Assembly (NCBI GenBank): GCA_019044685.2 | Contig: JAGTXX020000006.1 | Coordinates: 62,001-126,000, forward strand | Length of the DNA: 64,000 nucleotides | DNA from: Nannochloris sp. 'desiccata' | Lineage: Eukaryota; Chlorophyta; Trebouxiophyceae; Chlorellales; Chlorellaceae | Direction: 5' to 3' | In this document: positions 3,591 to 50,000 of the stretch, one piece after another | Layout of the letters: the number at the start of each line of letters is the position of its first letter | Position numbering within the stretch: the stretch's first letter is position 1 | Made by a program: the position numbers and the translations under genes | The notes under the pieces: model-generated | What the model saw: the letters and a program-made list of their open reading frames with translations, nothing else | Database searches by the model: none | Told to the model about the DNA's origin: nothing

Positions 3591-3651
3591 AAAATCAAAA
3601 TCTCTTTTCTGCGTACACAATTTTTACCGCCATATTTTTTCATTATTCAAA

Positions 3652-3656
3652 TTACA
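3652..3656 (-). terminator. TGTAA signal of the CDKL kinase gene (TTACA on + strand)
   Basis: TTACA on the plus strand, i.e. TGTAA on the minus strand, about 210 bp after the kinase stop. The convergent GUCD1 gene has its own TGTAA at 3832-3836, so the two predicted 3' UTRs overlap antisense by roughly 180 bp. Confidence 0.45.
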
Positions 3657-3864
3657 AGTCAGCATTTTCCTTTAATTTACTGCTTCCGTATCTGTATCCC
3701 CTTTTCTGCACGCCTCTCAGGCGGTTCTGAAGTAATACCCCTCTCTTCCTAACTTAATTTCGAATTGACTTTATATTACTTTCTTTAAATATTGATGATG
3801 TCTCAAAATTAAGCCGAGAATTGTTTCAAAATGTAAACTTAAAGGGAAAAAACTATCTATTTAT

Positions 3865-6232
3865 CTAGGTATTCGACAGTCCTGAACGTTTAATTCCACG
3901 TTCAGGTGATTTAAGCGTTACTTTAGACTCTCTTTTTGATCCATGTATCAATCGGCTCAAGAACCCACGATGCTTTGGCTGCTGTGGAGTCGCCGCCCCC
4001 GCTGCAGCAGCAGACACTGGAAGTACTGTGGACGCTGCTGCTTGCATGGTAACAATAACATCATGTTGCTGGTGCTGGTGCTTCTGTTGAGCTACCTCAT
4101 TGCTATTAATGTGGATACTAGCAATTGGCTTAGATTGAGGTACAGGCGCTTGCAGTACCTGAGGTGGATTTTCTGTAAACGTGATATGGCGGCGAGATGG
4201 GGGTGGCACTGACATTGGCATTGGAATCGAAGAAGAACCAGAGCCAGAGATATTCACCCCTGCACCATTACGAGATGCCTGAGCGGTTGTTGAGCGATTA
4301 CTTGCTATTAATCCATCTTGGTTGCGTGTACGCTGTGCACTGCGTTTCGTAGGACTCGGGATAGCCTTTGTGGGGGGTCGCAGAATTCCAGCACTTGTGA
4401 TTCCAGCACCGCCATTAGAATAGCTATTACCATTATTTCCAGCGGCATGTCTTGCTCCTCGTGTTAAATAAGGAGAAGCTCTAAGAGGAGATGCAGCAGC
4501 AGAAGTAGAGGTGGTCGTCGTAGTGCCGTTGCTGTCTGTATTGATATTTCGATGTTGTTGTGAATGCATTCCACCGACACGGGTTGAAGCAGACGCATTA
4601 CTAATACCATCACTGCTACGCGGAATGGGCCAGGAAGCCACTGCACCTGCGCCTGTAATGTATTTAGAGAGTGGTGTTCCTCTCCTGCTACCGCTACTTG
4701 GGGCAACGCCAGTGCTGGTTGCCAGTCTTCTAGGATGGAACTTTGTAGGCGAATTGATGTTGCTAGAAGAAGAACCGTGAGATTGTTTGTGCATGATTCC
4801 TTCAGCTGTTTCATTTGTCGTAATCTGGGCAGAGATACCAAGCTTACTACCAGCATAGACTGACTGTGGTTTGGGTGCTGCACCAAGTGCGGTTGTTGTC
4901 GATGCAGAGGAGCTGTTGCTTTGTGGAGGCAATTGTAAGACTTGTGCGGTACTAAGCTGCATCCTTTGACGACGTAGTACGAGTTCTCTACGGTGTATTA
5001 ATGCATCCCTTTCCATTTCACGTGCTGCAAGGAATTCAGGAGTCAGCCAGCTGTGGCTTTGCTCGGTCAACCATGGGTGCTCTAATAGCTGTGCTGCAGA
5101 TGATCTATCGTATGCCTTTCCTTCTAAACAGCATTCTAAAAAGGAAACTGCACCATTACCTAAATGTGCATATCTAGTTTTCACAGGACGCAGCGTTGCT
5201 GGCATGGCTACTGCTACTGCTGTGGCCGCAACATTGGTGACATCGCCAGCATCACGAGCACAACTATTAAAAGATGATTGAAATAGGTGTGGCAGTGGAC
5301 CAGTACATTCAAGCACTAGTTGCAACTGATCTACATCAGTAGCACCAGGGAATGCGGGTTTCCCAGTTAATAATTCAGCTACAAGGCACCCTACAGCCCA
5401 AATATCCACCTCTGGTCCGTACTGACCCCGGAACTGTCCTCGTGTTAATAGCTCAGGGGCACGGTACCAACGCGTAGCTACATAGGAAGTATATCTACCA
5501 CCTGTTTCTAGAGTAGCTATTTCATGGACTCGACGGGCAAAACCAAAATCACAAAGTTTTAATATACCTTCGTTGGAAATTAATAAGTTTTCAGGTTTTA
5601 TGTCCCTAAATAATGGAAAATAAATTAGTTGAGAATAGCTGCTTCATTGATTCTGCTATATATGCTAGTGTTTTATTTTATTAATAAAGTAAAAACGTAG
5701 TTACGCACCGGTGCATAATGTTTTTTTGAGAGTGGAGATAGTCAAGCGCTTGAAGTAGTTGCCAGATGATACGTTTAACTAATGGTTCGCAAATACCAGT
5801 AGCGCTACGTTCAAGCATTTGGAGGACTGTGTATTGGACATACTCAAATACTAAACAGAGTCTGTTTCTGTGGCGGAAGACATCAAGAAGGGAAACTATA
5901 TTATCATGATGGAGAGAACGCAGCATGCCTACTTCACGCATGGCGGTTTTAAGAACCTGTACAGTATGTAGATTCTAGTGAGTCGAACTGTTGATGAAGA
6001 TAGCGGAAATCTAATACAGTAGTGTCTGAAAAAAACAACTCGCCTGAGAATCACCGCCTTCGTCAGACTCTTTATATTTTTTGATAGCAACAACATCCTG
6101 CGCGCCCTTCACATTGCACCTGTAAACCGTTCCATAGGTTCCTTCACCAATATGGAGGATTCGGTCATAGTTCTGCAACCATTGGGAGCTCAAATTAGTA
6201 GTGAGGATTTGCCTCGACGCGATAGTATGCAT
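3865..6232 (-). CDS. Cyclin-dependent-kinase-like (CDKL) protein kinase
   Basis: CMGC-group serine/threonine kinase of the CDKL family, whose members control cilium and flagellum length in algae and animals. Exons on the minus strand are 6044-6232, 5709-5956 and 3865-5605, giving 725 residues. Kinase motifs in order: [11 protein letters not shown]ly loop, [38 protein letters not shown] and [13 protein letters not shown]. The activation loop reads T-S-Y where CDKL kinases usually have TEY. The kinase occupies about residues 20-310; the rest is a low-complexity Ser/Asn/Ala/Gln tail without recognisable domains. The first intron (5957-6043) has a GC donor, CAG|GCGAGT; the second has GTGCGT. All exon phases agree. 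The gene is divergent from the deubiquitinase gene across about 430 bp. CDKL assignment is strong; the ciliary role is by family only. Confidence 0.88.
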
Positions 6233-6659
6233 GGGAGCTGTATGTAGAGTCTACAAGCTAACCCACGTCTTTAACCAACTTTTATCTATTGATACATACC
6301 TCCATAGCAACGTATATCCTAAAATTTGAAGGTTTTTAAACCATTTATTGCCGCATGTGTGATTGGTCTTCTGATACGCTCAAAGAACAAGATTGAGCTA
6401 GATAACACTCTTCTAATGATCTTTAGTAGCATATTAGTCTGATACACTATCAACTGTCCCTTCGATTTTGTCTTTGCATTGGGTGAGAAGCGTTTTGTTT
6501 TGGGTCAACCAAGTGTTGTGCATCGAAAGAAAATATATTCAACGTGGCAATGCTAAAACTCTTCTCCAACCTTTGGTAAGAAGCATACCAAATTCAAACA
6601 GATATAGAAAAATAGAATAACTAGGCAATGCGGCGTAGGGCATAGTGCAGTATACAAAA
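6233..6659. promoter_or_regulatory. Divergent promoter region between CDKL kinase and USP22-like gene
   Basis: About 430 bp between two start codons facing away from each other, so both promoters must lie here. No TATA box or conserved operator can be singled out by eye, and no ORF in it looks coding. Confidence 0.5.
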
Positions 6660-9600
6660 ATGGCCCCAAAGCGGCAGAAAATGGCGATTCCGATCGGCTC
6701 GAGCTGCCCTCATCTTGATGCACTAACGCAGATGAAGCGAAGGAAACTTCTAGATTCAATATGGTCATCTTTAACCAAAAGCGTAGGTGCCCCCATTCTT
6801 TGCTATTGCGCATCTACCCAAAACAAAACTCAGGCATTTACAATGCAGAACCCACATTGGGCGCTATTGCAAAGCGCCCGTTACTCCTTCCATGCATTAC
6901 ACTTTATCATTCCTTCCTCGCATGACTGCAGACGCATCTCCAGGACCAAGCACACACTTTACAGTGTGTTACATGCGGCCGCCAGTCGGCTGACGCCGCC
7001 GAGCACAAGGCAGCGCACCCTGGCAAAAAGGTTCCTGCTGGGCATGAACTGGCTCTAGATACCAGCAGTGGAGAAATTTATTGCACTGTATGCAATGACT
7101 TTGTTTACGACTTTGAAGTAGATCGTGCAGTAACGGCTCTGTTAGCTGCTAAGAATGAAAATATTCTACCCCGTGAGAAATCTCTTGTTGAAGAAGAACC
7201 ACCAGCTATGATATCTCCAATAATAATGGGAAGTCCTCAAGGAGCTGTAGCTATAGCCCTTGCTACTGATGCTGCCACTGCTGTTTCCCCTGCTGCGGAA
7301 ATTCCCCCAATAGATGGAAATAACAACACTACCAGTGACCCATCCTCACTCACTGCTGCTGCCGGTGCTGTTGCTGCTCCACCAAATCTTCCTTATCCTT
7401 CTTTTCTACCTCTTCCTCGTCAAGTAGACGATTTCCCTGCTGGTCTACGTGGCCTCAACAACATGGGTCACACCTGTTTTATGAACTCAATCTTACAAGC
7501 GTTCTTACACACTCCTTTATTGCTGGAGCATCACTTGGCACATGGTCACAGCTGCGGTAATTGCCTTGATGGCACAGCTACTATTACCACTAGTTTTTCG
7601 ACGCACCATATGAATGATAACAGCGGTAGCGATCCGTGTTTAGCATGTGAACTTGACCGTGTCTTTTCTGAAGCGTATTCAGGAAATAGGGTCCCATTAT
7701 CTCCGGCATCGTTCTTGCATGCCTGGTGGTCCATGGCGGGGGGTGACCTTGGCGGTGGGTGTAAACAACAAGATGCACACGAATTTTTTTTATTTATGCT
7801 ACAAATGATCTCTTCAGTCAACGGCAATAGTACAGGGAGTGCTGCTACTAATAGTAATGAAGGGACTTTACTTTCTAAATTATTTGATGGAAGTATCCGA
7901 TCAGATGTGGTCTGCTGTGCATGCTGTGCTGCATCCACTACAATAGAGCATTTCACGAATCTTTCTTTAGATATACCCCCACCTACACGGTTACTCCCAC
8001 CACCTATAGTACCTAGACCAAAAGCCCAGGCCACTAATGCGAAATCAGGCAAAGGTGCTGCTGCAGCCAAGGCGGGAAAGCAACTTGTGGGGGCAGCCAA
8101 AGCAGCTCATTTAGCAAAACTTAATCGACAAAATAGCGGGAAAGGAGTGGCTGCGTTGATGCTACAACCTGAACCGACACCTGAACCGAGTAGCCAGTTT
8201 CTTGTTGATTTGACTATGGAGGAATCAATGGCAAGTGAGCTCACTAGTGGCGGTGGTGATGTTGATGGCGCAATTGGCGGTGGTGCTGAGGGTGCGAGGC
8301 CAGCGTCCCAAATTAAAATCAAAAAAATGTTTAATAGAGCAGGTCGCGGTGCTGCTGCTACCGTTCGTCCACGTCCCTCGCCTCCTACAGAAGGTATGAA
8401 TGCGCCACAACCCGAACAAGGCAGCGGAATCAATGCATTAGGAGCTACTGTGCTTGGTGCTGCTGCTGACGGAGGTGAAGACACACTCAGCTCACCGCAA
8501 CGTAAAAGAGCAGCTGCAGCCGCAGCAGCAGCTAATGTTAAATCTGGTAGTCTTCCACCTAGGAGCAGCTCTTCCCCTAGTGCTGACGGTATAGATCCTC
8601 AGCAGATTCAAGCTGCCGCTGCTGTCGCAGCAGCAGCTGCTGGACCTGGAGCATTCGCCCACCCTGCTTTGGCTCAATACTTGCATTGGCCTGGTGAATC
8701 TTTGATTGGATGCCTTAGACGGTTTGTATGGCCTGAACAGCTGGGTACAACAGGTCGGTGGAGGTGCTCTAAATGTGGATCTGAAGATGGTGCAGTAAAA
8801 CAACTTAGTTTAGCGAGATTACCTCCAATTTTGGTGCTACATGCAAAACGCTTTGAACATGCTGGTGGCACACGAGCAACTGCCAAGAAATTAGATACGT
8901 ATCTTTCGTTTCCTTTAGAAGATTTAGATATGGCGCCGTATTTGACAGCAGAGGCGTTGAAATCCAGGCATGTAGCTAGACCAACACCTCCTTCTAATGA
9001 TAAAGCTGCGGCTCCGGTGACAGGACTGGCAGCTACCATGAGCACTCCTGTTCCTGTTCTTACTACTGGTGCTGCTGCTGCGGCAGCAGGTGGTTCAAGA
9101 GGTGGTCGTTCTAGACCAATGTCAGCTGTAGCTGGAGACTCGACTATTCGGCGCACACGTAGTGCTGCTGCTGCTGTTGCTGCTGCTACAGCTACAGCGA
9201 CGGCCACTGCAGCTGTTGCTGGTGTCGATAAAAGCGGCGGTGGTGGTGGTGGTCGTACTCGTTCAACTGCAATGACCCGCTCAGCCTCTGCCGCTGCTAT
9301 AAGCAATGCTCTCTTTAGTGATGGAATAAATAGCAGTGGTGATGCTCCACGGGTGTTGCAATCCCCTAGCTCTACTGCTTTGCCCTCCACTGCCCACAAC
9401 AACGCAGATAGAGGGAAAGCTACCGTCGGTACCTCTAGTGCGCCCAGTAGCGCTTCCATGTATGATCTCTTTGCTGTGGTCTGCCATCGTGGCACCTTCC
9501 AAGGAGGCCATTACGTTGCATACGTTCGAGCAAGTGACGGGAATTGGTATTTGTGTGATGATGCCTATGTGCAGCGTGTGAATGAAGAAGTCGTCAGGAC

Positions 9601-9965: not shown

Positions 9966-12588
9966 TTACACTTCTCCAGACATCACCTGGCAATTTAGCA
10001 ACATCGCTTGCACCTCCACCCAAGCCTCTGCCGCAGTCGGTCTCTTTTTTCTATCACTGTCCAAACACCGTTTAACTAGACTTTTCAATGCCTCAGGTGC
10101 ATGCTCATCATTTTCAGGTAGACTTCGTAACCCACGGCCATGGCACACTGCATCCACAATCTGCTCTTGTCGTTGACCACACCATGCACGAACACCAGTA
10201 TACATTTCCCAAAGAATAACGCCAAATGAGTACATGTCTGTAGCCAAACTTAGTACCCCTTCAGCTAGGAGCTCCGGAGGCATGTGGGAGACAGTGCCGT
10301 AGTGTCTAGTAGACATGGATGCCTCTTGAGCAACACGAGCTATCCCGAAATCAGCCAACTTTGCCACAAAGCCTCGAGGATCTGAAGAATTGGCATTGGC
10401 AGCTTCATTATCATTTTCTTCTTGTTGAGGAGGCGGAGGTGATGTAAGCAAGACGTTATTATACGTCAAATCACCATGGATGATACCTTTGGAATGCAAG
10501 AAACCCAATGCAGATGCAATATCTGCAGCTGTGTAGAGATACTTTGCTAAATCAATCGGAGCTTCAGGGCCTCTCCATTTACGGAACCAGCCGCGGTCGA
10601 GAGCGTCCCCTAGCTTGCCACCAGTGCACAGCTCTTGAACAATCCATACACAATCTACTTCTTGTAAAGGGGCGGTGGGAGCTGACCAATAGCCACCTCC
10701 AGCAGTAGACCCTAAAGCACCAGAAACGTCTGGCTGAACAGCTTTACGCCATCGACAAAAATCAACTGTCTGAACTATGTTTGGGTGATGCAACTCAACG
10801 CTTAATGCACCTTCAATAACAGCACGCTCGACATCTTCCCAATACGAGCTATCTACGGGAAATTCAATAAGTTTTACTGCGACGATAGTGCCACGCCACA
10901 CAGCACGATGGACACGAGCGAAAGACCCACTTCCCAATAAAGGACCTAGCTGCATATCTGTGTATCTCTCAGGTAATACCATTTGATAGGGCAAGAGTTC
11001 TTTGGGAGAGACAGCTGCAAGCCTTGAAGCAGCAGTGGCAATATCCCCTTCTTCTTGATCTTGCAATCTCTTCTTGGGCATGGCAAATGGCTGCTTAGAA
11101 CGGGCATCAACCACACCTCTGGGAGTTTCTCTGTGTGATTCAAAGCTCTGTCGTTTCTGGGAATCCATACTGCTTCTCCTCGACTGACCGTCACCAGCGC
11201 CACTGCCGGCTTTACCAGAGGACGAAGTTGGTGAAGTGCTGCCAGAAGATGTAGCGGATTTGTAAGATGTCGCAGCAATAGAAGTACAACCACCAGCAGC
11301 AGGTGAGCTTACAGGTGAAGCTAGGCTATGCAAGGTTGCAAACCATAAATTGCCGCTGTGAGAAAGATCTGCACCGTCGCCAGCAGTAGTTCCCAACTGC
11401 GTATTGAAAGGAACAAAGCCAGGGATACCAACGGGGGTACTGCCAGCTATAATATCACTTGCAGGACGTAATACAACTCTCAATTGTTGTTGTTGTTGGT
11501 TGCCTTCTCCTTTCCTTTTCAATTGCACTTTTAGTTTGACTGGTCGGCGTGACTGGAGCGCAGCAGGCACATCACGGGCTATCTCTTCAGGATCTACGCA
11601 GGTAAACATATCCCAGAAGGATCTCATATCGTTCGAACAAGATGGGATGGCTATGTTGCCACCTGGAATATCGTCACTAAGGCGGCCATTAAGTTGCTGA
11701 TTCCAATATCTGTTGCCATAAAGTAAAGGCCAACCCTTAACATCCAAATCCAACAGGGCAATGGGATCTTCAAAATCCGATTGCGTGCGTCGTGCAATAT
11801 CACCTAGATGTTGTATCTTGAAAGGAGCACCAAAATTGCCTTGCTCAAGCTCACGAGTTGCGAGCTCAGCAAAATTAACGAGAGTATTCAGTAGATTACA
11901 AGGGAAGCTACGAGGCTTTACATCCAATATGCAGAGAGTGCCATATCTGTGCCCCGTAGAACCAACAAGAGGAGCGCCAGCGTAGAAACGTAGATACGGT
12001 GGGCTCTTAATGAACATATTTTCGGAAAACCGAGCGTCAGTCAAAAGGTCTTCAACAACCAAGACCTCTGGGTTATCGCTAACTTGAATTTTGTCGCAGC
12101 AACTCTGTTTACGATCTGCAGAACGCATCTCCATAGGGCCTGCTACGCTCTTGCACCATTGTTCTTCAGCGTAGCCTAAAGAAACGAGAGCTACAGGCGT
12201 GTGGAAGATTGAGCTCATCAGTCTGAAGGAAGTAATAAAGAGATTTGTTAAAACCCATGGATTTTTCGTGCAACTCCTTGTTTATTTGCTAGTTAACTTA
12301 CTTGGTAATGCAATCGAACCTAAATTCCTCTGGTGTTTTATAAATCGCAAAGCTTTGTAAGAGAGCTAATCGTTCAGGTTCGCTGGCAATTTTTGCAGGG
12401 TCATTCCATGTGGCTATATAATTCTCGTTTATATCAGGCAAGCTCTTTTGGGACTCCGAGGTACTTGACCCTGCTCTTTGACATGGTAAGCCGGGTAAAA
12501 GATTCTCAGATGGATTGCATTGCCTGTTTTGCTGGTCTGAGCTCCGTCTCCGGAGAGCTGCTCCAAGTATTTGATTTAATCGCACCAT
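9966..12588 (-). CDS. GAF-domain TKL (Raf/MAP3K-like) kinase, copy A
   Basis: Predicted sensor kinase: an N-terminal GAF-type domain followed by a tyrosine-kinase-like Ser/Thr kinase domain. Exons are 12302-12588 and 9966-12222, intron 79 bp (GTAAGT...CAG), 847 residues. The start is the ATG in ACCATGG at 12586-12588 because the divergent copy D keeps the same MVR start. GAF-like motifs at about residues 75-250: RFDCITK, TPVALVSLGYAEEQW and LRFYAGAPLVG..GTLCILD. A Ser/Thr/Ala-rich linker follows. The kinase domain is at about 520-840: GSGSFARV loop, IVAVKLIEF, IIHGDLTYNNVLL, LADFGIAR and HMPPELL. The catalytic loop has HGD for HRD and T in place of the usual Lys; this is common in algal TKL kinases, and Asp and Asn are kept. 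The stop codon overlaps a TGTAA. Ligand and substrate are unknown. Confidence 0.85.
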
Positions 12589-12706
12589 GGTGCTTTGATA
12601 AAATAATAGCAGGATGTCGAAACTTTTGGGGTTATACAATTGAAGTGCCGGAAAAAGTGCTGCGGCAGCCAATAAAGCCAATAAAGGTAGGCCACCCAAT
12701 AAAGTG

Positions 12707-12714
12707 AACCGCAA

Positions 12715-12750
<36 letters not shown>

Positions 12751-13251
12751 ATTACAGTCTCTGGCGCAGAAAATGTGCCCTACTGCCAGTAATATTAGCC
12801 ATCTAATAAAGACAATTATTTAGAAAAATAAACAGAGAATCGATAGCTTAGAAAGAGTGTTAGAAAACTAACAAGGAGAAATCTCAACACCTGACGATAT
12901 CGCCGCCAGCTCAGGAACAGAGTAGATCCATCAGAGTGAACTGATGGAACCACACCTTCATCTTCTGATCTTCCTGCTCTGGACACAAAAGAGCCTGGTC
13001 GCCTGCCACGGCGGCTCCGTTTTCCTGAACCTCGAGGCCGGCCACGAGGTGCACCGGTGTAAGGTCCAGAAGGGGGAGTATAGGGTCTTCTATCAGGAAC
13101 ACCAGGGAGAAGAAGGTTATTTGGGGCAAGCCCCATTCGCACAAGGGTTCTGTCGCCAGCAGTAGGCAGCCCTGGGGGGCCCTGAAAGGGCGGTGCAGGT
13201 GCAGGCGCCTGAGGTGAAGTGTCAAAATTTCCCAACACAACCGCAAAGCAC
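12707..13251 (-). mobile_element. 519-bp retroposon-like insertion with 13-bp target-site duplication (unit A)
   Basis: The 13-mer AACCGCAAAGCAC occurs at 12707-12719 and 13239-13251, directly flanking 519 bp that copy D lacks. Copy D has the corresponding uninterrupted site near 23396-23412. Read on the minus strand, the insert holds a Pro/Arg/Gly-rich reading frame ending near 12816, then a short 3' region with TGTAA (plus-strand TTACA at 12752-12756), directly followed by a (TG)n tail of about 16 units. That is the shape of a 5'-truncated retroposed transcript or LINE-like end. No reverse transcriptase is present. It sits in the promoter of kinase A. Confidence 0.65.
12752..12756 (-). terminator. 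TGTAA just before the (TG)n tail of the insert
   Basis: Minus-strand TGTAA followed within a few bases by the (TG)n run, in the expected order of polyadenylation signal then 3' end for a retroposed transcript. Same arrangement in units B and C. Confidence 0.45.
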
Positions 13252-13264
13252 GACTCGTGCTCTC

Positions 13265-13415
13265 GGAGAGATGATCTACAGCCTATTGTATTGCATTTTT
13301 GAAGGCTGCAGTACCTATAATAATGGTACATTGGTCAGCCTCCCGGGCTTTGCCGCTGTTAACGAGGAAAGCCGAGCTGAACATGATGTCTCGCAACAAC
13401 ACTATTGAGGCTTTA
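13265..13415 (+). pseudogene. Remnant of CABIN1 first exon, unit A
   Basis: Similar to the start of the CABIN1 gene at 23420-23580, including GCTGCAGTAC and the stretch encoding PGFAAVNEESRAEHD. The start codon position reads TTG, not ATG. Homology stops after GAGGCTTTAG and the frame soon closes. It is a duplicated piece of the divergent neighbour's 5' end, now decaying. Confidence 0.75.
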
Positions 13416-13530
13416 GTATCAAGATGCTTCTTCGTATAATAGTGTTGCTGTTTTGCAAGCAAATAAATGGCAATTCAAAGAACATTGAAAGGGGAAAGAG
13501 TCTGGAATTGTTTAGGAAATCGGTATTTGT

Positions 13531-16153
13531 TTACACTTCTCCAGACATCACCTGGCAATTTAGCAACATCGCTTGCACCTCCACCCAAGCCTCTGCCGCA
13601 GTCGGTCTCTTTTTTCTATCACTGTCCAAACACCGTTTAACTAGACTTTTCAATGCCTCAGGTGCATGCTCATCATTTTCAGGTAGACTTCGTAACCCAC
13701 GGCCATGGCACACTGCATCCACAATCTGCTCTTGTCGTTGACCACACCATGCACGAACACCAGTATACATTTCCCAAAGAATAACGCCAAATGAGTACAT
13801 GTCTGTAGCCAAACTTAGTACCCCTTCAGCTAGGAGCTCCGGAGGCATGTGGGAGACAGTGCCGTAGTGTCTAGTAGACATGGATGCCTCTTGAGCAACA
13901 CGAGCTATCCCGAAATCAGCCAACTTTGCCACAAAGCCTCGAGGATCTGAAGAATTGGCATTGGCAGCTTCATTATCATTTTCTTCTTGTTGAGGAGGCG
14001 GAGGTGATGTAAGCAAGACGTTATTATACGTCAAATCACCATGGATGATACCTTTGGAATGCAAGAAACCCAATGCAGATGCAATATCTGCAGCTGTGTA
14101 GAGATACTTTGCTAAATCAATCGGAGCTTCAGGGCCTCTCCATTTACGGAACCAGCCGCGGTCGAGAGCGTCCCCTAGCTTGCCACCAGTGCACAGCTCT
14201 TGAACAATCCATACACAATCTACTTCTTGTAAAGGGGCGGTGGGAGCTGACCAATAGCCACCTCCAGCAGTAGACCCTAAAGCACCAGAAACGTCTGGCT
14301 GAACAGCTTTACGCCATCGACAAAAATCAACTGTCTGAACTATGTTTGGGTGATGCAACTCAACGCTTAATGCACCTTCAATAACAGCACGCTCGACATC
14401 TTCCCAATACGAGCTATCTACGGGAAATTCAATAAGTTTTACTGCGACGATAGTGCCACGCCACACAGCACGATGGACACGAGCGAAAGACCCACTTCCC
14501 AATAAAGGACCTAGCTGCATATCTGTGTATCTCTCAGGTAATACCATTTGATAGGGCAAGAGTTCTTTGGGAGAGACAGCTGCAAGCCTTGAAGCAGCAG
14601 TGGCAATATCCCCTTCTTCTTGATCTTGCAATCTCTTCTTGGGCATGGCAAATGGCTGCTTAGAACGGGCATCAACCACACCTCTGGGAGTTTCTCTGTG
14701 TGATTCAAAGCTCTGTCGTTTCTGGGAATCCATACTGCTTCTCCTCGACTGACCGTCACCAGCGCTGCTGCCGGCTTTACCAGAGGACGAAGTTGGTGAA
14801 GTGCTGCCAGAAGATGTAGCGGATTTATAAGATGTCGCAGCAATAGAAGTACAACCACCAGCAGCAGGTGAGCTTACAGGTGAAGCTAGGCTATGCAAGG
14901 TTGCAAACCATAAATTGCCGCTGTGAGAAAGATCTGCACCGTCGCCAGCAGTAGTTCCCAACTGCGTATTGAAAGGAACAAAGCCAGGGATACCAACGGG
15001 GGTACTGCCAGCTATAATATCACTTGCAGGACGTAATACAACTCTCAATTGTTGTTGTTGTTGGTTGCCTTCTCCTTTCCTTTTCAATTGCACTTTTAGT
15101 TTGACTGGTCGGCGTGACTGGAGCGCAGCAGGCACATCACGGGCTATCTCTTCAGGATCTACGCAGGTAAACATATCCCAGAAGGATCTCATATCGTTCG
15201 AACAAGATGGGATGGCTATGTTGCCACCTGGAATATCGTCACTAAGGCGGCCATTAAGTTGCTGATTCCAATATCTGTTGCCATAAAGTAAAGGCCAACC
15301 CTTAACATCCAAATCCAACAGGGCAATGGGATCTTCAAAATCCGATTGCGTGCGTCGTGCAATATCACCTAGATGTTGTATCTTGAAAGGAGTACCAAAA
15401 TTGCCTTGCTCAAGCTCACGAGTTGCGAGCTCAGCAAAATTAACGAGAGTATTCAGTAGATTACAAGGGAAGCTACGAGGCTTTACATCCAATATGCAGA
15501 GAGTGCCATATCTGTGCCCCGTAGAACCAACAAGAGGAGCGCCAGCGTAGAAACGTAGATACGGTGGGCTCTTAATGAACATATTTTCGGAATACCGAGC
15601 GTCAGTCAAAAGGTCTTCAACAACCAAGACCTCTGGGTTATCGCTAACTTGAATTTTGTCGCAGCAACTCTGTTTACGATCTGCAGAACGCATCTCCATA
15701 GGGCCTGCTACGCTCTTGCACCATTGTTCTTCAGCGTAGCCTAAAGAAACGAGAGCTACAGGCGTGTGGAAGATTGAGCTCATCAGTCTGAAGGAAGTAA
15801 TAAAGAGATTTGTTAAAACCCATGGATTTTTCGTGCAACTCCTTGTTTATTTGCTAGTTAACTTACTTGGTAATGCAATCGAACCTAAATTCCTCTGGTG
15901 TTTTATAAATCGCAAAGCTTTGTAAGAGAGCTAATCGTTCAGGTTCGCTGGCAATTTTTGCAGGGTCATTCCATGTGGCTATATAATTCTCGTTTATATC
16001 AGGCAAGCTCTTTTGGGACTCCGAGGTACTTGACCCTGCTCTTTGACATGGTAAGCCGGGTAAAAGATTCTCAGATGGATTGCATTGCCTGTTTTGCTGG
16101 TCTGAGCTCCGTCTCCGGAGAGCTGCTCCAAGTATTTGATTTAATCGCACCAT
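13531..16153 (-). CDS. GAF-domain TKL kinase, copy B
   Basis: Same gene structure as copy A: exons 15867-16153 and 13531-15787, 847 residues, start ATG at 16151-16153. I see only a few amino acid differences from copy A, for example DARY for DARF and NFGTP for NFGAP in the GAF region, and KAGSS for KAGSG in the linker. Kinase-domain residues appear unchanged. Reading frame and splice sites are intact, so it is probably functional. Near identity with A and C implies very recent duplication or continuing gene conversion. Confidence 0.85.
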
Positions 16154-16271
16154 GGTGCTTTGATAAAATAATAGCAGGATGTCGAAACTTTTGGGGTTAT
16201 ACAATTGAAGTGCCGGAAAAAGTGCTGCGGCAGCCAATAAAGCCAATAAAGGTAGGCCACCCAATAAAGTG

Positions 16272-16279
16272 AACCGCAA

Positions 16280-16313
<34 letters not shown>

Positions 16314-16814
16314 ATTACAGTCTCTGGCGCAGAAAATGTGCCCTACTGCCAGTAATATTAGCCATCTAATAAAGACAATTATTTAGAAAAATAAACAGAG
16401 AATCGATAGCTTAGAAAGAGTGTTAGAAAACTAACAAGGAGAAATCTCAACACCTGACGATATCGCCGCCAGCTCAGGAACAGAGTAGATCCATCAGAGT
16501 GAACTGATGGAACCACACCTTCATCTTCTGATCTTCCTGCTCTGGACACAAAAGAGCCTGGTCGCCTGCCACGGCGGCTCCGTTTTCCTGAACCTCGAGG
16601 CCGGCCACGAGGTGCACCGGTGTAAGGTCCAGAAGGGGGAGTATAGGGTCTTCTATCAGGAACACCAGGGAGAAGAAGGTTATTTGGGGCAAGCCCCATT
16701 CGCACAAGGGTTCTGTCGCCAGCAGTAGGCAGCCCTGGGGGGCCCTGAAAGGGCGGTGCAGGTGCAGGCGCCTGAGGTGAAGTGTCAAAATTTCCCAACA
16801 CAACCGCAAAGCAC
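16272..16814 (-). mobile_element. Retroposon-like insertion, unit B copy
   Basis: Same insert as in unit A, 517 bp, with the 13-mer AACCGCAAAGCAC at 16272-16284 and 16802-16814. It was copied with the unit rather than inserted again, since position and ends are the same. Confidence 0.65.
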
Positions 16815-16827
16815 GACTCGTGCTCTC

Positions 16828-16978
16828 GGAGAGATGATCTACAGCCTATTGTATTGCATTTTTGAAGGCTGCAGTACCTATAATAATGGTACATTGGTCA
16901 GCCTCCCGGGCTTTGCCGCTGTTAACGGGGAAAGCCGAGCTGAACATGATGTCTCGCAACAACACTATTGAGGCTTTA
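16828..16978 (+). pseudogene. Remnant of CABIN1 first exon, unit B
   Basis: Copy of the unit A remnant with lost start codon. It differs from A by a G in GTTAACGGGG, a change shared with unit C. Confidence 0.75.
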
Positions 16979-17094
16979 GTATCAAGATGCTTCTTCGTAT
17001 AATAGTGTTGCTGTTTTGCAAGCAAATAAATGGCAATTCAAAGAACATTGAAAGGGGAAAAGGGTCTGGAATTGTTTAGGAAATCGGTATTTGT

Positions 17095-19717
17095 TTACAC
17101 TTCTCCAGACATCACCTGGCAATTTAGCAACATCGCTTGCACCTCCACCCAAGCCTCTGCCGCAGTCGGTCTCTTTTTTCTATCACTGTCCAAACACCGT
17201 TTAACTAGACTTTTCAATGCCTCAGGTGCATGCTCATCATTTTCAGGTAGACTTCGTAACCCACGGCCATGGCACACTGCATCCACAATCTGCTCTTGTC
17301 GTTGACCACACCATGCACGAACGCCAGTATACATTTCCCAAAGAATAACGCCAAATGAGTACATGTCTGTAGCCAAACTTAGTACCCCTTCAGCTAGGAG
17401 CTCCGGAGGCATGTGGGAGACAGTGCCGTAGTGTCTAGTAGACATGGATGCCTCTTGAGCAACACGAGCTATCCCGAAATCAGCCAACTTTGCCACAAAG
17501 CCTCGAGGATCTGAAGAATTGGCATTGGCAGCTTCATTATCATTTTCTTCTTGTTGAGGAGGCGGAGGTGATGTAAGCAAGACGTTATTATACGTCAAAT
17601 CACCATGGATGATACCTTTGGAATGCAAGAAACCCAATGCAGATGCAATATCTGCAGCTGTGTAGAGATACTTTGCTAAATCAATCGGAGCTTCAGGGCC
17701 TCTCCATTTACGGAACCAGCCGCGGTCGAGAGCGTCCCCTAGCTTGCCACCAGTGCACAGCTCTTGAACAATCCATACACAATCTACTTCTTGTAAAGGG
17801 GCGGTGGGAGCTGACCAATAGCCACCTCCAGCAGTAGACCCTAAAGCACCAGAAACGTCTGGCTGAACAGCTTTACGCCATCGACAAAAATCAACTGTCT
17901 GAACTATGTTTGGGTGATGCAACTCAACGCTTAATGCACCTTCAATAACAGCACGCTCGACATCTTCCCAATACGAGCTATCTACGGGAAATTCAATAAG
18001 TTTTACTGCGACGATAGTGCCACGCCACACAGCACGATGGACACGAGCGAAAGACCCACTTCCCAATAAAGGACCTAGCTGCATATCTGTGTATCTCTCA
18101 GGTAATACCATTTGATAGGGCAAGAGTTCTTTGGGAGAGACAGCTGCAAGCCTTGAAGCAGCAGTGGCAATATCCCCTTCTTCTTGTTCTTGCAATCTCT
18201 TCTTGGGCATGGCAAATGGCTGCTTAGAACGGGCATCAACCACACCTCTGGGAGTTTCTCTGTGTGATTCAAAGCTCTGTCGTTTCTGGGAATCCATACT
18301 GCTTCTCCTCGACTGACCGTCACCAGCGCCACTGCCGGCTTTACCAGAGGACGAAGTTGGTGAAGTGCTGCCAGAAGATGTAGCGGATTTATAAGATGTC
18401 GCAGCAATAGAAGTACAACCACCAGCAGCAGGTGAGCTTACAGGTGAAGCTAGGCTATGCAAGGTTGCAAACCATAAATTGCCGCTGTGAGAAAGATCTG
18501 CACCGTCGCCAGCAGTAGTTCCCAACTGCGTATTGAAAGGAACAAAGCCAGGGATACCAACGGGGATACTGCCAGCTATAATATCACTTGCAGGACGTAA
18601 TACAACTCTCAATTGTTGTTGTTGTTGGTTGCCTTCTCCTTTCCTTTTCAATTGCACTTTTAGTTTGACTGGTCGGCGTGACTGGAGCGCAGCAGGCACA
18701 TCACGGGCTATCTCTTCAGGATCTACGCAGGTAAACATATCCCAGAAGGATCTCATATCGTTAGAACAAGATGGGATGGCTATGTTGCCACCTGGAATAT
18801 CGTCACTAAGGCGGCCATTAAGTTGCTGATTCCAATATCTGTTGCCATAAAGTAAAGGCCAACCCTTAACATCCAAATCCAACAGGGCAATGGGATCTTC
18901 AAAATCCGATTGCGTGCGTCGTGCAATATCACCTAGATGTTGTATCTTGAAAGGAGTACCAAAATTGCCTTGCTCAAGCTCACGAGTTGCGAGCTCAGCA
19001 AAATTAACGAGAGTATTCAGTAGATTACAAGGGAAGCTACGAGGCTTTACATCCAATATGCAGAGAGTGCCATATCTGTGCCCCGTAGAACCAACAAGAG
19101 GAGCGCCAGCGTAGAAACGTAGATACGGTGGGCTCTTAATGAACATATTTTCGGAATACCGAGCGTCAGTCAAAAGGTCTTCAACAACCAAGACCTCTGG
19201 GTTATCGCTAACTTGAATTTTGTCGCAGCAACTCTGTTTACGATCTGCAGAACGCATCTCCATAGGGCCTGCTACGCTCTTGCACCATTGTTCTTCAGCG
19301 TAGCCTAAAGAAACGAGAGCTACAGGCGTGTGGAAGATTGAGCTCATCAGTCTGAAGGAAGTAATAAAGAGATTTGTTAAAACCCATGGATTTTTCGTGC
19401 AACTCCTTGTTTATTTGCTAGTTAACTTACTTGGTAATGCAATCGAACCTAAATTCCTCTGGTGTTTTATAAATCGCAAAGCTTTGTAAGAGAGCTAATC
19501 GTTCAGGTTCGCTGGCAATTTTTGCAGGGTCATTCCATGTGGCTATATAATTCTCGTTTATATCAGGCAAGCTCTTTTGGGACTCCGAGGTACTTGACCC
19601 TGCTCTTTGACATGGTAAGCCGGGTAAAAGATTCTCAGATGGATTGCATTGCCTGTTTTGCTGGTCTGAGCTCCGTCTCCGGAGAGCTGCTCCAAGTATT
19701 TGATTTAATCGCACCAT
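17095..19717 (-). CDS. GAF-domain TKL kinase, copy C
   Basis: Exons 19431-19717 and 17095-19351, 847 residues, start ATG at 19715-19717. Relative to A and B it has IIAGSIPVG (I for T) and RLQEQEEGD (E for D) in the linker. Both changes are shared with copy D, so C and D exchanged sequence most recently. Frame and splice sites are intact. Confidence 0.85.
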
Positions 19718-19835
19718 GGTGCTTTGATAAAATAATAGCAGGATGTCGAAACTTTTGGGGTTATACAATTGAAGTGCCGGAAAAAGTGCTGCGGCAGCCA
19801 ATAAAGCCAATAAAGGTAGGCCACCCAATAAAGTG

Positions 19836-20370
19836 AACCGCAAAGCACACACACACACACACACACACCATTACAGTCTCTGGCGCAGAAAATGTGCCCT
19901 ACTGCCAGTAATATTAGCCATCTAATAAAGACAATTATTTAGAAAAATAAACAGAGAATCGATAGCTTAGAAAGAGTGTTAGAAAACTAACAAGGAGAAA
20001 TCTCAACACCTGACGATATCGCCGCCAGCTCAGGAACAGAGTAGATCCATCAGAGTGAACTGATGGAACCACACCTTCATCTTCTGATCTTCCTGCTCTG
20101 GACACAAAAGAGCCTGGTCGCCTGCCACGGCGGCTCCGTTTTCCTGAACCTCGAGGCCGGCCACGAGGTGCACCGGTGTAAGGTCCAGAAGGGGGAGTAT
20201 AGGGTCTTCTATCAGGAACACCAGGGAGAAGAAGGTTATTTGGGGCAAGCCCCATTCGCACAAGGGTTCTGTCGCCAGCAGTAGGCAGCCCTGGGGGGCC
20301 CTGAAAGGGCGGTGCAGGTGCAGGCGCCTGAGGTGAAGTGTCAAAATTTCCCAACACAACCGCAAAGCAC
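19836..20370 (-). mobile_element. Retroposon-like insertion, unit C copy
   Basis: Insert of 509 bp between AACCGCAAAGCAC at 19836-19848 and 20358-20370. The shorter length is explained by the (CA)11 run. Confidence 0.65.
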
Positions 20371-20383
20371 GACTCGTGCTCTC

Positions 20384-20534
20384 GGAGAGATGATCTACAG
20401 CCTATTGTATTGCATTTTTGAAGGCTGCAGTACCTATAATAATGGTACATTGGTCAGCCTCCCGGGCTTTGCCGCTGTTAACGGGGAAAGCCGAGCTGAA
20501 CATGATGTCTCGCAACAACACTATTGAGGCTTTA
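20384..20534 (+). pseudogene. Remnant of CABIN1 first exon, unit C
   Basis: Third copy of the truncated exon, with the same lost start codon and the same breakpoint after GAGGCTTTAG. Confidence 0.75.
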
Positions 20535-20643
20535 GTATCAAGATGCTTCTTCGTATAATAGTGTTGCTGTTTTGCAAGCAAATAAATGGCAATTCAAAGA
20601 ACATTGAAAGGGGAAAAGGGTCTGGAATTGTTTAGGAAATCGG

Positions 20644-22326
20644 TATTTGTTTACACTTCTCCAGACATCACCTGGCAATTTAGCAACATCGCTTGCACCT
20701 CCACCCAAGCCTCTGCCGCAGTCGGTCTCTTTTTTCTATCACTGTCCAAACACCGTTTAACTAGACTTTTCAATGCCTCAGGTGCATGCTCATCATTTTC
20801 AGGTAGACTTCGTAACCCACGGCCATGGCACACTGCATCCACAATCTGCTCTTGTCGTTGACCACACCATGCACGAACGCCAGTATACATTTCCCAAAGA
20901 ATAACGCCAAATGAGTACATGTCTGTAGCCAAACTTAGTACCCCTTCAGCTAGGAGCTCCGGAGGCATGTGGGAGACAGTGCCGTAGTGTCTAGTAGACA
21001 TGGATGCCTCTTGAGCAACACGAGCTATCCCGAAATCAGCCAACTTTGCCACAAAGCCTCGAGGATCTGAAGAATTGGCATTGGCAGCTTCATTATCATT
21101 TTCTTCTTGTTGAGGAGGCGGAGGTGATGTAAGCAAGACGTTATTATACGTCAAATCACCATGGATGATACCTTTGGAATGCAAGAAACCCAATGCAGAT
21201 GCAATATCTGCAGCTGTGTAGAGATACTTTGCTAAATCAATCGGAGCTTCAGGGCCTCTCCATTTACGGAACCAGCCGCGGTCGAGAGCGTCCCCTAGCT
21301 TGCCACCAGTGCACAGCTCTTGAACAATCCATACACAATCTACTTCTTGTAAAGGGGCGGTGGGAGCTGACCAATAGCCACCTCCAGCAGTAGACCCTAA
21401 AGCACCAGAAACGTCTGGCTGAACAGCTTTACGCCATCGACAAAAATCAACTGTCTGAACTATGTTTGGGTGATGCAACTCAACGCTTAATGCACCTTCA
21501 ATAACAGCACGCTCGACATCTTCCCAATACGAGCTATCTACGGGAAATTCAATAAGTTTTACTGCGACGATAGTGCCACGCCACACAGCACGATGGACAC
21601 GAGCGAAAGACCCACTTCCCAATAAAGGACCTAGCTGCATATCTGTGTATCTCTCAGGTAATACCATTTGATAGGGCAAGAGTTCTTTGGGAGAGACAGC
21701 TGCAAGCCTTGAAGCAGCAGTGGCAATATCCCCTTCTTCTTGTTCTTGCAATCTCTTCTTGGGCATGGCAAATGGCTGCTTAGAACGGGCATCAACCACA
21801 CCTCTGGGAGTTTCTCTGTGTGATTCAAAGCTCTGTCGTTTCTGGGAATCCATACTGCTTCTCCTCGACTGACCGTCACCAGCGCCACTGCCGGCTTTAC
21901 CAGAGGACGAAGTTGGTGAAGTGCTGCCAGAAGATGTAGCGGATTTGTAAGATGTCGCAGCAATAGAAGTACAACCACCAGCAGCAGGTGAGCTTACAGG
22001 TGAAGCTAGGCTATGCAAGGTTGCAAACCATAAATTGCCGCTGTGAGAAAGATCTGCACCGTCGCCAGCAGTAGTTCCCAACTGCGTATTGAAAGGAACA
22101 AAGCCAGGGATACCAACGGGGATACTGCCAGCTATAATATCACTTGCAGGACGTAATACAACTCTCAATTGTTGTTGTTGTTGGTTGCCTTCTCCTTTCC
22201 TTTTCAATTGCACTTTTAGTTTGACTGGTCGGCGTGACTGGAGCGCAGCAGGCACATCACGGGCTATCTCTTCAGGATCTACGCAGGTAAACATATCCCA
22301 GAAGGATCTCATATCGTTAGAACAAG
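20644..22326. repeat. Partial fourth unit, shared with unit C up to a sharp breakpoint
   Basis: From 20644 to 22326 the sequence is almost identical to unit C (17088-18770). Immediately after TTAGAACAAG the two diverge strongly. The breakpoint lies inside the kinase gene, just before the end of the GAF-proximal coding region. Confidence 0.9.
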
Positions 22327-23309
22327 TAACAAGGGCTGCGACATCATCGCTACTTTTATTTTCACCACTGCCACCACCACCACCACTACTACCATGGACG
22401 TCTTGGCTCCAAAAGGCGTTACTATACAGCAATGGCCAGCCTTTCACATCCAAATCCAACAGTGCAACAGGCTCTAAATAATCTGCTCTCGTTCGTTGTG
22501 AAATGTCGCCTAGATGTTGGATTTTTGAAGGGGTAGCAAAGTTGCCTTGTTCCAGCTCTCGAGTAGCTAGCTCGGCAAAATTAACAAGAGTATTAAGTAA
22601 ACTGGCAGGATAGCTACGGGGCTTTGTGTCAAGCACACATAAGGTTCCATAGCGATGCCCAGTTGTTCCAACCAACGGAGCGCCAGCGTAGAAACGAAGA
22701 TGGGGCGGGCCGGCGACTGCTGGATGAGCAGAGAACCGTGAATCTTGGGACAAGTCTTCAAGAACCACAATTTCAGGGTTATCACCACAATTTCAGGGTT
22801 ATCACTGACGTGAATTTGGTCGCAAAAACTGGCCTTGCGATTAAGGCACGAACCGAAAGGCCCTGCAACGCTCTTGAACCAGAGTTCTTCAGCGTAGCTC
22901 AGAGAGACCAGAGCGACGGGCGTGGAGAAAATGGAGGCCACTAGTCTGAAGGAAGTTTTGAAAAGGTTGTGTTAGAGCATTGAAACACTGATCGCCAGCT
23001 GAGCATAAACGACATCATTACTTACTTAGTGATACAGTCGAAGCGGTGTTCTGCTGGAGTGCGAAGAACTCCGAAGCTTTGGAGTAATGAAAGACGTTCC
23101 TGTTCGCTGGCAAATTTTGACGGGTCGTTCCATGCTGCAGCATATTTTTCATGTATATCATCTGAATCAGTTTTGTTCGCGCCCGAGACGCTTAACCCTT
23201 CGGTTTGAGAAGATAAATCGCCGACTGAGTGTTCATCTTCCGGTCTCTGTTGGTGGTCTGAGCTCCGTCGCCAGAGAGCCCCTCCCAATAGTTGAGTAAA
23301 ACGCACCAT
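20651..23309 (-). pseudogene. GAF-domain TKL kinase, copy D: chimeric and frameshifted
   Basis: Exons by comparison with A-C: 23026-23309 and 20651-22945. The C-terminal two thirds (kinase domain and linker) match copy C, but the N-terminal GAF region is a divergent paralogue (TPVALVSLSYAEELWFKSV, GAPLVGTTGHRYGTLCVLD) with a Gly-rich insert SSGGGGGSGENK. Within the GAF region, 20 bp (22764-22783) are tandemly duplicated at 22784-22803. Because 20 is not a multiple of three, the frame breaks after SDNPEIVV; the downstream frame stays open to the normal stop. Either this is a recent pseudogene, or translation restarts at an internal ATG (22766-22768) giving 705 residues without the first part of the GAF domain, or the duplication is an assembly error. 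Its promoter lacks the insertion found in A-C. Confidence 0.7.
22764..22803. repeat. 20-bp perfect tandem duplication causing a frameshift
   Basis: ACCACAATTTCAGGGTTATC occurs twice in direct succession at 22764-22783 and 22784-22803. Removing one copy joins the two reading frames of kinase D. Confidence 0.97.
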
Positions 23310-47014: not shown

Positions 47015-50000
47015 TCAAGTAAAATAAAAAGGCTTGACATCATTCACACCAAACCTATCACCACATCCGGGACATTTGCGATGGCGGGTATTCAAATTGG
47101 CATCTATACAGTGGGAACAGAAGAGATGGTTGCATTTCGTGATGATACGATCCTTCATACGAGCGTGACATACATTGCAATTGACCATTTTTAGCAGAGC
47201 AGCAACCTCTGCTTTATCACCACCTCCACCATAACCAGCGCCAGCAGCAGCACTGGTACCCAGGCGACGAATGCGATCTTGCAAGTCTGCTGCATCAGCA
47301 AGGGCCCTATCTGCACGTGTCTTTTCCTTATGTAATGCTTCTGCTTCAGTATCACGCTCAGCAGCACGTGTTTTGGCTTCATTTCGCGCAGCTTCTGCAT
47401 CTCTGGTAGCTGCATCGACGGCTGCTCTGGCTGCAGCTGCTTCACGAACAGCGCCATCAGCTTGGGCAGAGAGCTGCCGCGCGTCTTTTCTCGCCTTTCC
47501 TAGCTCTAATGATAATGCATTCACACGTGCATCCAGCTCTTCGACTGCCCTGCGAGCTATATCAGCTTCTTGTTCAGCTCTGCGTGCTGCTTCCACAGCA
47601 GCGCTCTTTTCATCCACCATGTTTGAGCGTTCTCTGGTAGCTGCTGCAGCTTCACGTAATAACCTGACATTCTCTTCATCGCGGTTTTGGATACTAGCTA
47701 ATAATTTTACGTTTTCTTCTTGTGCTGCTTCGTATGCTTCGCTGACACTTTCTACCTCTTTTAAAACTGCTTCTCCATCTTCACGGAGCACAGCAGCCTC
47801 AGCACGCAAGGCGTCTGCTTCTTTTTGGAGAGATTCCACACGTGCTGTAAGTACTGCACGCTCTTCCTCTAAGGCTTCTACTTGGGAAAGAAGCTCACTT
47901 TCGCGAACAGAAGAAGGACCATGTGAGGTTGCTCCATCAGCAGCCTTGGTCGCCGTTTCCAGTCGTTGAGAAACAGCAGCTGCTTGTTTATCTAAGAATT
48001 GGGTAATTTGTTTCTTCATTGCATCTGCAGAGAGATTAGACATGGTATCGCCATTTGCGTTGCCTCCATCACTCCCACCAAGAAGAAGGTTTTGAGAGAC
48101 TTCAGCAAATAATCGAAGTTCTTCTTCTCTTTCTACTGCTGCTTTACGTTCAGCAGCCCAGTTCAAAGCATCAGTTCTCGCCGTTTTTAACCTTAGTTTC
48201 ACAGTTTCTAGCTGTGCTTTGCTCTCTGCCAGCAGTCGAGTTGCTTCAGCAGCTGTCGTGCGTGCAGTCTCAGCTCCTTCAGCCGCTGCCTTGTGTTTAT
48301 CCCGAGATTTTTTAAGTGAAGCCAGATCTTTCTGAAGAGAAGAGACCATTTTAGATAATTCTTCTGCACTTGGAGCAGTATACGCTGTAGCACGTAGACG
48401 GTCCACCTCAGATTCTGCTGCTGCTTGTTTTGCTTGAGCATCCGCAATTCTATTCTTAAGTGAGTCAATGTCCTCACGAGCTGCTCTCAATCTACGACTC
48501 GCATCTCTACCAATGTCGATTTCTCTCTTTGCGTCATGAAGATTATCCAGCAAGTGATCACGTTCACGTTGAAATTCACGAAGACGACCATCAAGACCAT
48601 CAAGCTCAGCCTTGTAATATTTAACTTGTTCTTTCGCACTTTCACGAGCACGCGCTGCATTTTCACGTTCTATAGTTAATTTAGCACGCATTTCACGAGC
48701 TTCTCTGCATAAAACAAACCAAAAAGAGATACATGTGTTAAAATCGCGGGATGGAACATAAATTTTCAAATTCTCCGAATAGGGTCACAAAGAAATTGAA
48801 CCATTGGCGTTTTCGCCCTGATTATGGCGCCCAGAACGTTAATGTTATCTGGAGGTCGCGGGTTCGATCCCCGCAGGCGATAGCCAATGGTTGTCTGTCC
48901 TCGGAACCGAGGAAGGTCGCCTTAGCGCAGTGGATTAGCGCGCCAGACTTCGGCACTTCATTTTTTGCGCTGCTATACTACTCGACAAACTCGCCTTTCA
49001 CTTTTGGCCAAAGCCCCATCACGTTCTTCTACCTCTACTTCACGTCTTTGCAGCACACGCTTGACATTTTCCAACTCGGCAACCAAAGCAGCTTGCTCTG
49101 CAGAATTCACTTGCCGTCGTGCACTGGCATCCTCTGTACCACCAGGTACAGAGGGCTGTGTTGCCGGAGAAGCAGTTGGAGCAATACTTGCATTCAAACC
49201 ACTCGTTGGCCCTCCTGCCTCTTTCATCTGTACAAATTTCCGCTGCGCCACCAACAGCTCTTCTTCTTTATCAGCCAAGCTACTTGCCAGGCCTTTAATC
49301 TTCGTAGCATCGTGTAAAGCTTGGTCTTTTAGTCTGTTATTTTCAGCTTTTAGTAAGTTGTTCATCGCAGCCAGCTGGGATTCTTTAGAGGCAGAGGCAG
49401 AGGCAGCTGTCGGCGTGCCACCGCCAGCGCCACCTTCTCGAGGAGTACCGAGACTACTACAACGAGCTTCTTCTACAGCTTCGAAGACACGTGCAGCAGC
49501 TTCCAAAGTAGCAGACATACGTTTCCGGAGGGCTGTTTCTATTTCCGACAGGTCTTCCACCAGGCTTTTTGCAGTGCTTGCTGCCAGTCGGTCTCCACCA
49601 AGACATGAAGACAGAAGCTTGGCTAGGAAAGGGTTGGCTTGTTCTAGAAGCTCAGAGTCTCTATTTTCGTCAGCTTCAGTATCATTCTGGGATAAGTTGC
49701 CGGTAGCTCTGCAAATTGAAAAGGGGATTAAGTAAAATGATTTACAGAACACGGAACACAAACTATGGCGGAAGAAAATAATACATATTTAATAATCAAG
49801 GCAGACTGTATTGAAGCCAAAGCTTACCTAAATGATAGGAATGATATTGAACCATTGAGTTCTTCCCATAAACGGTTGACGCAAAGGACAGTCTCCTGAC
49901 GTTCTTCTTCCTTGTCCTGCAAGTCGCCTAGGGTGCGCTGCAATCTATTGATTTCCTGGCGTTGAACTGAAACTTGCGCACTAAGCTTGGAATTGCGATC

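Follow-up and report, generated by a model that had tools for sequence, protein, structure and literature searches.

The window analysed here (the whole stretch of 64,000 nucleotides of DNA) carries on its plus strand, at 48847-48953, a circularly permuted tRNA-Arg(UCG) gene, in which the 3' half of the molecule is encoded upstream of its 5' half on the same strand. This is very probably a working nuclear gene, and one of a large set. A partial survey of the genome found 37 nuclear-type tRNA species, 27 of which (73%) are permuted at the same point, between positions 37 and 38, a fraction that is provisional because missing tRNAs may be diverged or broken elsewhere.

The tRNA-Arg(UCG) locus

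The upstream half of the gene (tRNA positions 38-73, at 48847-48882) comprises the 3' strand of the anticodon stem (48848-48852), the variable region (48853-48857), the T arm (48858-48874), the 3' strand of the acceptor stem (48875-48881) and a discriminator A (48882); a pattern listing places the B-box, or T-loop, motif GGTTCGATCCC at 48861-48871 (110861-110871 of the contig). A spacer of 33 nt (48883-48915), without TTTT and with no encoded CCA, separates it from the downstream half (positions 1-37, at 48916-48953), with the acceptor strand (48916-48922), the D arm (48925-48941), the 5' strand of the anticodon stem (48943-48947) and the anticodon TCG (48950-48952). A T6 run of the Pol III terminator type (48961-48966) starts 8 nt past position 37. 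All these features lie on the plus strand; both halves were delimited by ARAGORN on the rejoined halves, by a finder of permuted tRNAs and by a covariance model termed R2, the 5' half being also read directly on the sequence. Once rejoined, the halves make a full cloverleaf, tRNA-Arg(tcg) for ARAGORN, with acceptor stem 7/7 (G1-U72 included), D stem 4/4, anticodon stem 5/5 and T stem 5/5. The preliminary description of this DNA was right in its coordinates and in all its stem counts, as rechecked on the sequence and by ARAGORN, and the break exactly at 37/38, the 33-bp spacer and the T6 terminator are present as it had them. A spacer devoid of terminator, followed by T6 beyond the 5' half, is a sequence sign of a single transcript.

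The finder gives the locus a score of 28.5, and no other match in the window reaches 20. When applied to 150 dinucleotide-preserving shuffled copies of the window (9.6 Mb), it returned six matches of at least 25, with a maximum of 26.0. R2 is a permuted-order covariance model made from eight permuted tRNAs of this genome, Arg excluded, and it recognizes the locus with 67.5 bits (E=3.6e-21 in a search of 75.8 kb). Its companion R1, also in permuted order, was made from 10 permuted tRNAs of the genome, Arg(UCG) among them. In native order the window yields no tRNA from ARAGORN and none from Rfam at gathering score, which is expected, since the gene is permuted. That the locus reflects an assembly artefact or a chance likeness to a tRNA is hardly credible: its finder score exceeds every match in the shuffled sequence, a model ignorant of Arg retrieves it, and one and the same design recurs in 27 species on 14 contigs, with spacers and leaders that differ.

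On the opposite strand the locus faces a protein-coding region (47015-49788, minus strand) made of ORFs 48973-49788 and 47015-48784, the latter with a C-terminal RING domain. These look like exons of one gene, and the tRNA gene sits between them, apparently inside an intron; their architecture may be 'Bre1-like'. The host is a trebouxiophyte green alga. A TTC4-like protein of the window has its nearest named relatives in Parachlorella and Picochlorum (58-60%), hence in Chlorellales, and an ANTH-domain protein has them in Apatococcus, Trebouxia and Micractinium (48%), which does not point to Chlorellales; for both, the nearest named relatives are Trebouxiophyceae, and there are other, closer relatives up to 89% identical. 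This lends support to the earlier claim of a permuted tRNA-Arg(UCG) in a chlorophyte-type genome. Elsewhere in the window (9966-22792), three near-identical tandem ORFs of 771 aa are accompanied by a fourth of 713 aa, which matches them over most of their length and has a diverged start; by eye, the C-terminal part of these ORFs is kinase-like.

A partial survey of tRNA genes in the genome

Places to be considered were collected with the patterns GGTTCRANYCC (141 places), GGTYNNNNGTTCRANNC (39) and AGAYNNNNGTTCRANNC (19), and the surrounding sequence was examined at 139, 34 and 19 of them, respectively. The patterns are not commoner than their reversed controls (141 vs 187, 39 vs 40 and 19 vs 62), so that most places must be due to chance and the surrounding sequence alone decides. 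Three D-arm patterns, with mismatches, were added to the survey (17, 9 and 11 places, of which 16, 5 and 11 were examined), and their sole new tRNA was Tyr(GTA). In 20 D-arm regions neither ARAGORN nor the finder detected a tRNA, and seven of these, viewed directly, had none. The AGAY T-arm pattern, examined at 19/19 places, brought nothing new, and a concatenated paralogue DNA query matched only its own sequences. The finder was designed for breaks at 37/38, the sole break point that the survey covers.

Beyond Arg(UCG), 26 species are broken at 37/38, 25 of them retained by the finder with a score of at least 25 and Leu(CAG) recognized by eye. The permuted set, given by anticodon, includes Arg TCG, ACG, CCG, TCT and CCT, that is, five out of the five Arg isoacceptors found, together with Ala TGC and CGC, Asn GTT, Cys GCA, Glu CTC, Gly TCC, Ile AAT and TAT, Leu CAA, AAG, TAA and CAG, Lys CTT, Met CAT, Phe GAA, Ser AGA and GCT, Thr AGT, CGT and TGT, Trp CCA, and Tyr GTA. 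Colinear species are Val TAC, Gln CTG and initiator Met, without intron, and His GTG, Pro TGG, Ser TGA, Asp GTC, Pro AGG, Ser CGA and Pro CGG, with introns. As these seven linear tRNAs have ordinary anticodon-loop introns, the splicing endonuclease should be present in the cell. Some eight of the tRNAs to be expected (Ala AGC, Gly GCC, Glu TTC, Gln TTG, Lys TTT, Leu TAG, Val AAC/CAC) did not turn up. As the searches need a near-consensus T or D arm, the corresponding isoacceptors may be diverged or broken elsewhere. Two identical linear tRNA-Ser(GCT) genes found on two contigs (L004 on C6, L005 on C13), probably organelle-derived DNA and presumably plastid-like, were excluded from the count of 37 species.

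Several candidates were set aside or renamed. Finder matches of 22.0 to 24.5 (seven, one and two in three runs), falling below 25, were discarded as chance. The ARAGORN label Pro(cgg) at L018 was overruled by eye in favour of Ser(CGA), and its Ile(aat) with a 122-nt intron at L038 in favour of Pro(CGG), a reading with which ARAGORN concurred once an insert described below was omitted. A Thr(tgt) with a 107-nt intron at L070 was discarded, as its T arm belongs to a permuted Trp gene. The permuted tRNA-Trp(CCA) gene is itself present in three copies on one contig (L068, L070; C8), one of which has small inserts resembling decay or assembly error.

All 27 permuted species match R1 or R2 at E<2e-6, 10 of the 27 belonging to the training set of R1. 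On 90 sources R1 produced 20 matches below this limit (the 10 training members, two extra Trp copies and eight untrained genes), and on 60 further sources it produced eight, all outside training; Tyr(GTA), run against R2 only, reached E=9.9e-21. The best R1 match to a non-permuted gene is partial and concerns a linear tRNA-Val (E=7.4e-5), which means that weak model scores are by themselves no proof of permutation. Among the genes accepted, Ser GCT (R1 E of 1.9e-6) and Leu CAG (1.5e-6) match most weakly; Gly(TCC) has 3.9e-8 with R1 and 0.24 with R2, all its stems being paired. Some finder scores come near the maximum of the shuffled sequence (Leu TAA 25.5, Trp 26.0, Arg CCT 26.5, Thr TGT 26.5). 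Among these, Leu TAA, Arg CCT and Thr TGT, none of them used in training, have R1 E values of 7e-11 or better, and Trp is a training member of R1.

In several cases where the variable region is long, the 3' half starts a few bases further downstream in the model than in the finder. Ala(TGC) and Leu(TAA) each have one anticodon-stem mispair, and Thr(CGT) and Thr(TGT) one acceptor mispair each. In Cys(GCA) (L016:368-454), 7 extra nt of ambiguous placement lie between anticodon stem and variable region, corresponding either to a later start of the 3' half, with a U-U mismatch at 29-41, or to a short insert; a U-U mismatch at 29-41 is also seen in Ala(TGC). Rfam YrlA (Y RNA-like) falls over two permuted Arg genes (L067:178-287 and L036:150-287), far below gathering score.

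It might be that the Arg(UCG) locus is a dead rearranged copy, left unexpressed after duplication and deletion, while a linear Arg(UCG) or some other Arg tRNA does the work. We find this very improbable. When the whole genome (21.55 Mb, 18 contigs) was searched at the DNA level for the rejoined tRNA (E<=10), a search that may miss diverged paralogues, only its own two halves matched and no intact copy did. A genome search with RF00005, in which 63 of 825 candidates were scored, returned nine ordinary tRNAs at E<=0.001 and, when run to E<=10, 10 above the model's own cut-off, with zero Arg. An intact linear tRNA-Arg(UCG) elsewhere, which together with a lack of junction reads would, for the preliminary description, reduce this locus to a relic, was found by neither search. 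To be sure, a linear Arg tRNA may have been overlooked because the survey is partial (its T arm might be unusual), and the eight or so isoacceptors that escaped us leave the dead copy some room. Against it, all the stems of Arg(UCG) are intact, the four other Arg isoacceptors found are likewise permuted, the break point is common to the other permuted genes and a T-run follows in 25/26 of them; furthermore, decay is visible where it is present, as in one of the three Trp(CCA) copies. We therefore keep to a working permuted gene.

Common features and likely maturation of the permuted genes

Feature statistics were compiled for the 26 genes identified by the finder, Leu CAG being omitted. Acceptor pairs are formed in 180/182 instances and anticodon-stem pairs in 128/130, stem quality being part of the selection. 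By contrast with this built-in property, R37 is present in 26/26 permuted genes and the finder made no such demand. Discriminators in the 26 genes agree with amino-acid rules: Cys has U, Ser has G and Leu has A. A T4 run starts at most 20 nt from position 37 in 25 of the 26 genes, vs 14% of 6382 arbitrary positions, the exception being Ser AGA, with T4 at 26 nt. Spacers, 5-73 nt long (median 16), contain TTTT in 0/26 cases and none of them starts with CCA.

The G located three nucleotides before the 3' half of Arg(UCG) had been noted for its capacity to pair with C32. This base, leader position -3 (48844, plus strand), can indeed make a pair of the anticodon-intron type, and the pair finds support across the permuted genes. 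Base 32 and leader -3 make a Watson-Crick pair in 17/26 genes, against a mean of 10.5 when leaders are shuffled among genes (p=0.001), and base 32 pairs with the remaining leader positions from -1 to -6 in 1 to 8 genes out of 26; the Watson-Crick 32/-3 pair is missing in 9/26. We take it to be the anticodon-intron pair of eukaryotic tRNA splicing. The pairing of CATT in the trailer with AATG in the leader, also put forward in the preliminary description, exists at Arg(UCG) but is no general feature. In the 26 genes a helix between leader and trailer (the central one of a BHB) is not supported, a gene's own partners doing no better than mismatched ones (mean duplex energy -0.99 for real pairs vs -1.21 for mismatched pairs, p=0.79). 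In seven permuted genes the T-run comes immediately past position 37, which leaves hardly any trailer for pairing. An upstream TATA-like element is not enriched either (TATA in 5/26 genes; 16% of 60-mers in the control).

In the pathway that we propose, Pol III would transcribe leader, 3' half, spacer and 5' half, terminating at the T-run. The precursor would then fold as a normal tRNA body, with an anticodon loop open at 37/38 and acceptor ends bridged by the spacer. The tRNA splicing endonuclease, directed by the tRNA body and the 32/-3 pair, would cut off leader and trailer, and tRNA ligase would seal position 37 to position 38, making a circle with the spacer looping out of the acceptor stem. 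RNase P and tRNase Z would then excise the spacer, after which CCA would be added and, finally, the matured tRNA-Arg(UCG) charged.

A different fate can be imagined, where the halves are never ligated and act as a two-piece tRNA, or serve another role, as in two-piece tmRNA. A functional tRNA whose anticodon loop stays open is not known to us. The lack of support for a leader/trailer helix would suit such a fate, as would the existence of two-piece forms of permuted tmRNA (PMC3978253). Yet the break coincides with the canonical site of tRNA introns, the 32/-3 pair is retained above chance, and circular intermediates have been demonstrated in other algae (PMC3978253), all of which makes unligated halves very improbable in our eyes. 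All six Arg codons are used in four ORFs of the window (188 of 2969 codons) and the five Arg tRNAs found are permuted, five out of five, so that the cell most likely depends on the circular pathway. More generally, as most tRNA genes found are permuted, it probably must cut, circularise and re-cut these RNAs for protein synthesis.

GT...AG inserts in two tRNA genes

The permuted Leu(CAG) gene has its D loop interrupted by an 89-nt insert (L092:299-387; C11), which starts with GTAAGC, ends with TTTCAG and has a CTAAC finishing 27 nt before its end. Pro(CGG), besides an ordinary 29-nt anticodon-loop intron, has a 93-nt insert after position 31 (L038:109-201; C5), organized as GTACGT...TACTAAG...TTGCAG. 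For comparison, the one clear protein-gene intron in the window reads GTAAGT...TTTTGCAG. With the inserts omitted, ARAGORN reports tRNA-Leu(cag), confirming the permuted reading of this gene, and tRNA-Pro(cgg), two species that the set otherwise lacks. Both inserts follow a donor, branch-point and acceptor rule which was defined after they had been seen and which is also followed by 5 of 255636 fixed stretches of the same lengths in the window. They have no likeness to each other or to other sequence examined (blastn, E<=0.1).

The idea that the inserts are parts of overlapping protein genes was rejected after considering ORFs of at least 100 aa in the surrounding 10 kb. Around the Leu(CAG) gene (about L206:4940-5120), one ORF ends at 4292 and the next starts at 5771; the Pro(CGG) gene (L207:4761-4955) is flanked by ORFs 3536-4771 and 5197-6855, the former overlapping its first 11 bases. 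Judging from their sequence, the inserts of Leu(CAG) and Pro(CGG) look like spliceosomal (U2-type) introns, and the spliceosome would be what removes them. The full picture, a nuclear tRNA gene set that is mostly permuted, with true spliceosomal introns in some precursors, one of them permuted, is one on which our opinion is evenly balanced.

Relation to known systems and significance

Permuted tRNA genes have so far been treated as rarities. They occur in archaea besides algae, and for algae, red as well as green, the maturation pathway described by Soma and co-workers is established (PMC3978253). This review, which dates from 2014, tabulates 34 permuted tRNAs in seven organisms, none of them Arg(TCG), with Cyanidioschyzon merolae as the richest. 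Permuted Ser genes are common to the nucleomorphs of two chlorarachniophytes (PMC4494063). C. merolae (Soma 2007, via PMC3978253) is like the present alga in placing the 3' half first and a T-run after the 5' half, in not encoding CCA, in having some genes with an extra intron, and in its short spacers (7-74 bp there, 5-73 here). It differs in that 11 of its 43 genes are permuted, at four break positions (here 27 of 37 species, 37/38 being the sole break examined), in its TATA-like upstream element, whereas none is enriched here, and in its extra introns, which are of the BHB type whereas one permuted gene here has a GT...AG insert (PMC3978253). Ostreococcus and Micromonas (Maruyama 2010, via PMC3978253) likewise have mostly type II genes with the 37/38 break, and several of their isoacceptors overlap with those found here (Arg TCT, Asn GTT, Cys GCA, Leu TAA, Ser GCT, Ser AGA), but the count is 3-6 permuted genes per genome and Arg(TCG) is absent from the 34-gene table.

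Whether permuted tRNAs had been reported in this lineage was left undecided by the preliminary description. They have: Auxenochlorella, a trebouxiophyte and thus a member of the same green-algal class, was the subject of reports in 2025 (PMC12633428; PMC12636532; Plant Cell), its genes having been found via an incomplete ordinary tRNA set (PMC12636532). Literature searches covering green algae at large, the Trebouxiophyceae and Chlorella turned up no other report of permuted tRNAs in a trebouxiophyte. On tRNA genes with spliceosomal introns, a search of mostly open-access literature retrieved nothing on topic, as judged by title and abstract opening. Some yeasts have mRNA-type introns in their U6 snRNA genes, a similar case of a spliceosome-type intron in a Pol III-type gene, the host genes here being those of tRNAs.

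This kind of permuted tRNA is already known; what may be new is how widespread it is within one genome, along with the GT...AG inserts. If true, nuclear tRNA genes with spliceosomal introns and a translation that relies mainly on permuted tRNAs would both be new with respect to the literature searched. The GT...AG inserts would let spliceosomal processing of tRNA be tested directly. A permuted majority would account for the incomplete sets that such algae yield with standard tRNA finders and, including as it does every Arg tRNA found, would tie translation to the circular pathway. Such a genome would offer a natural system for asking why permutation persists.
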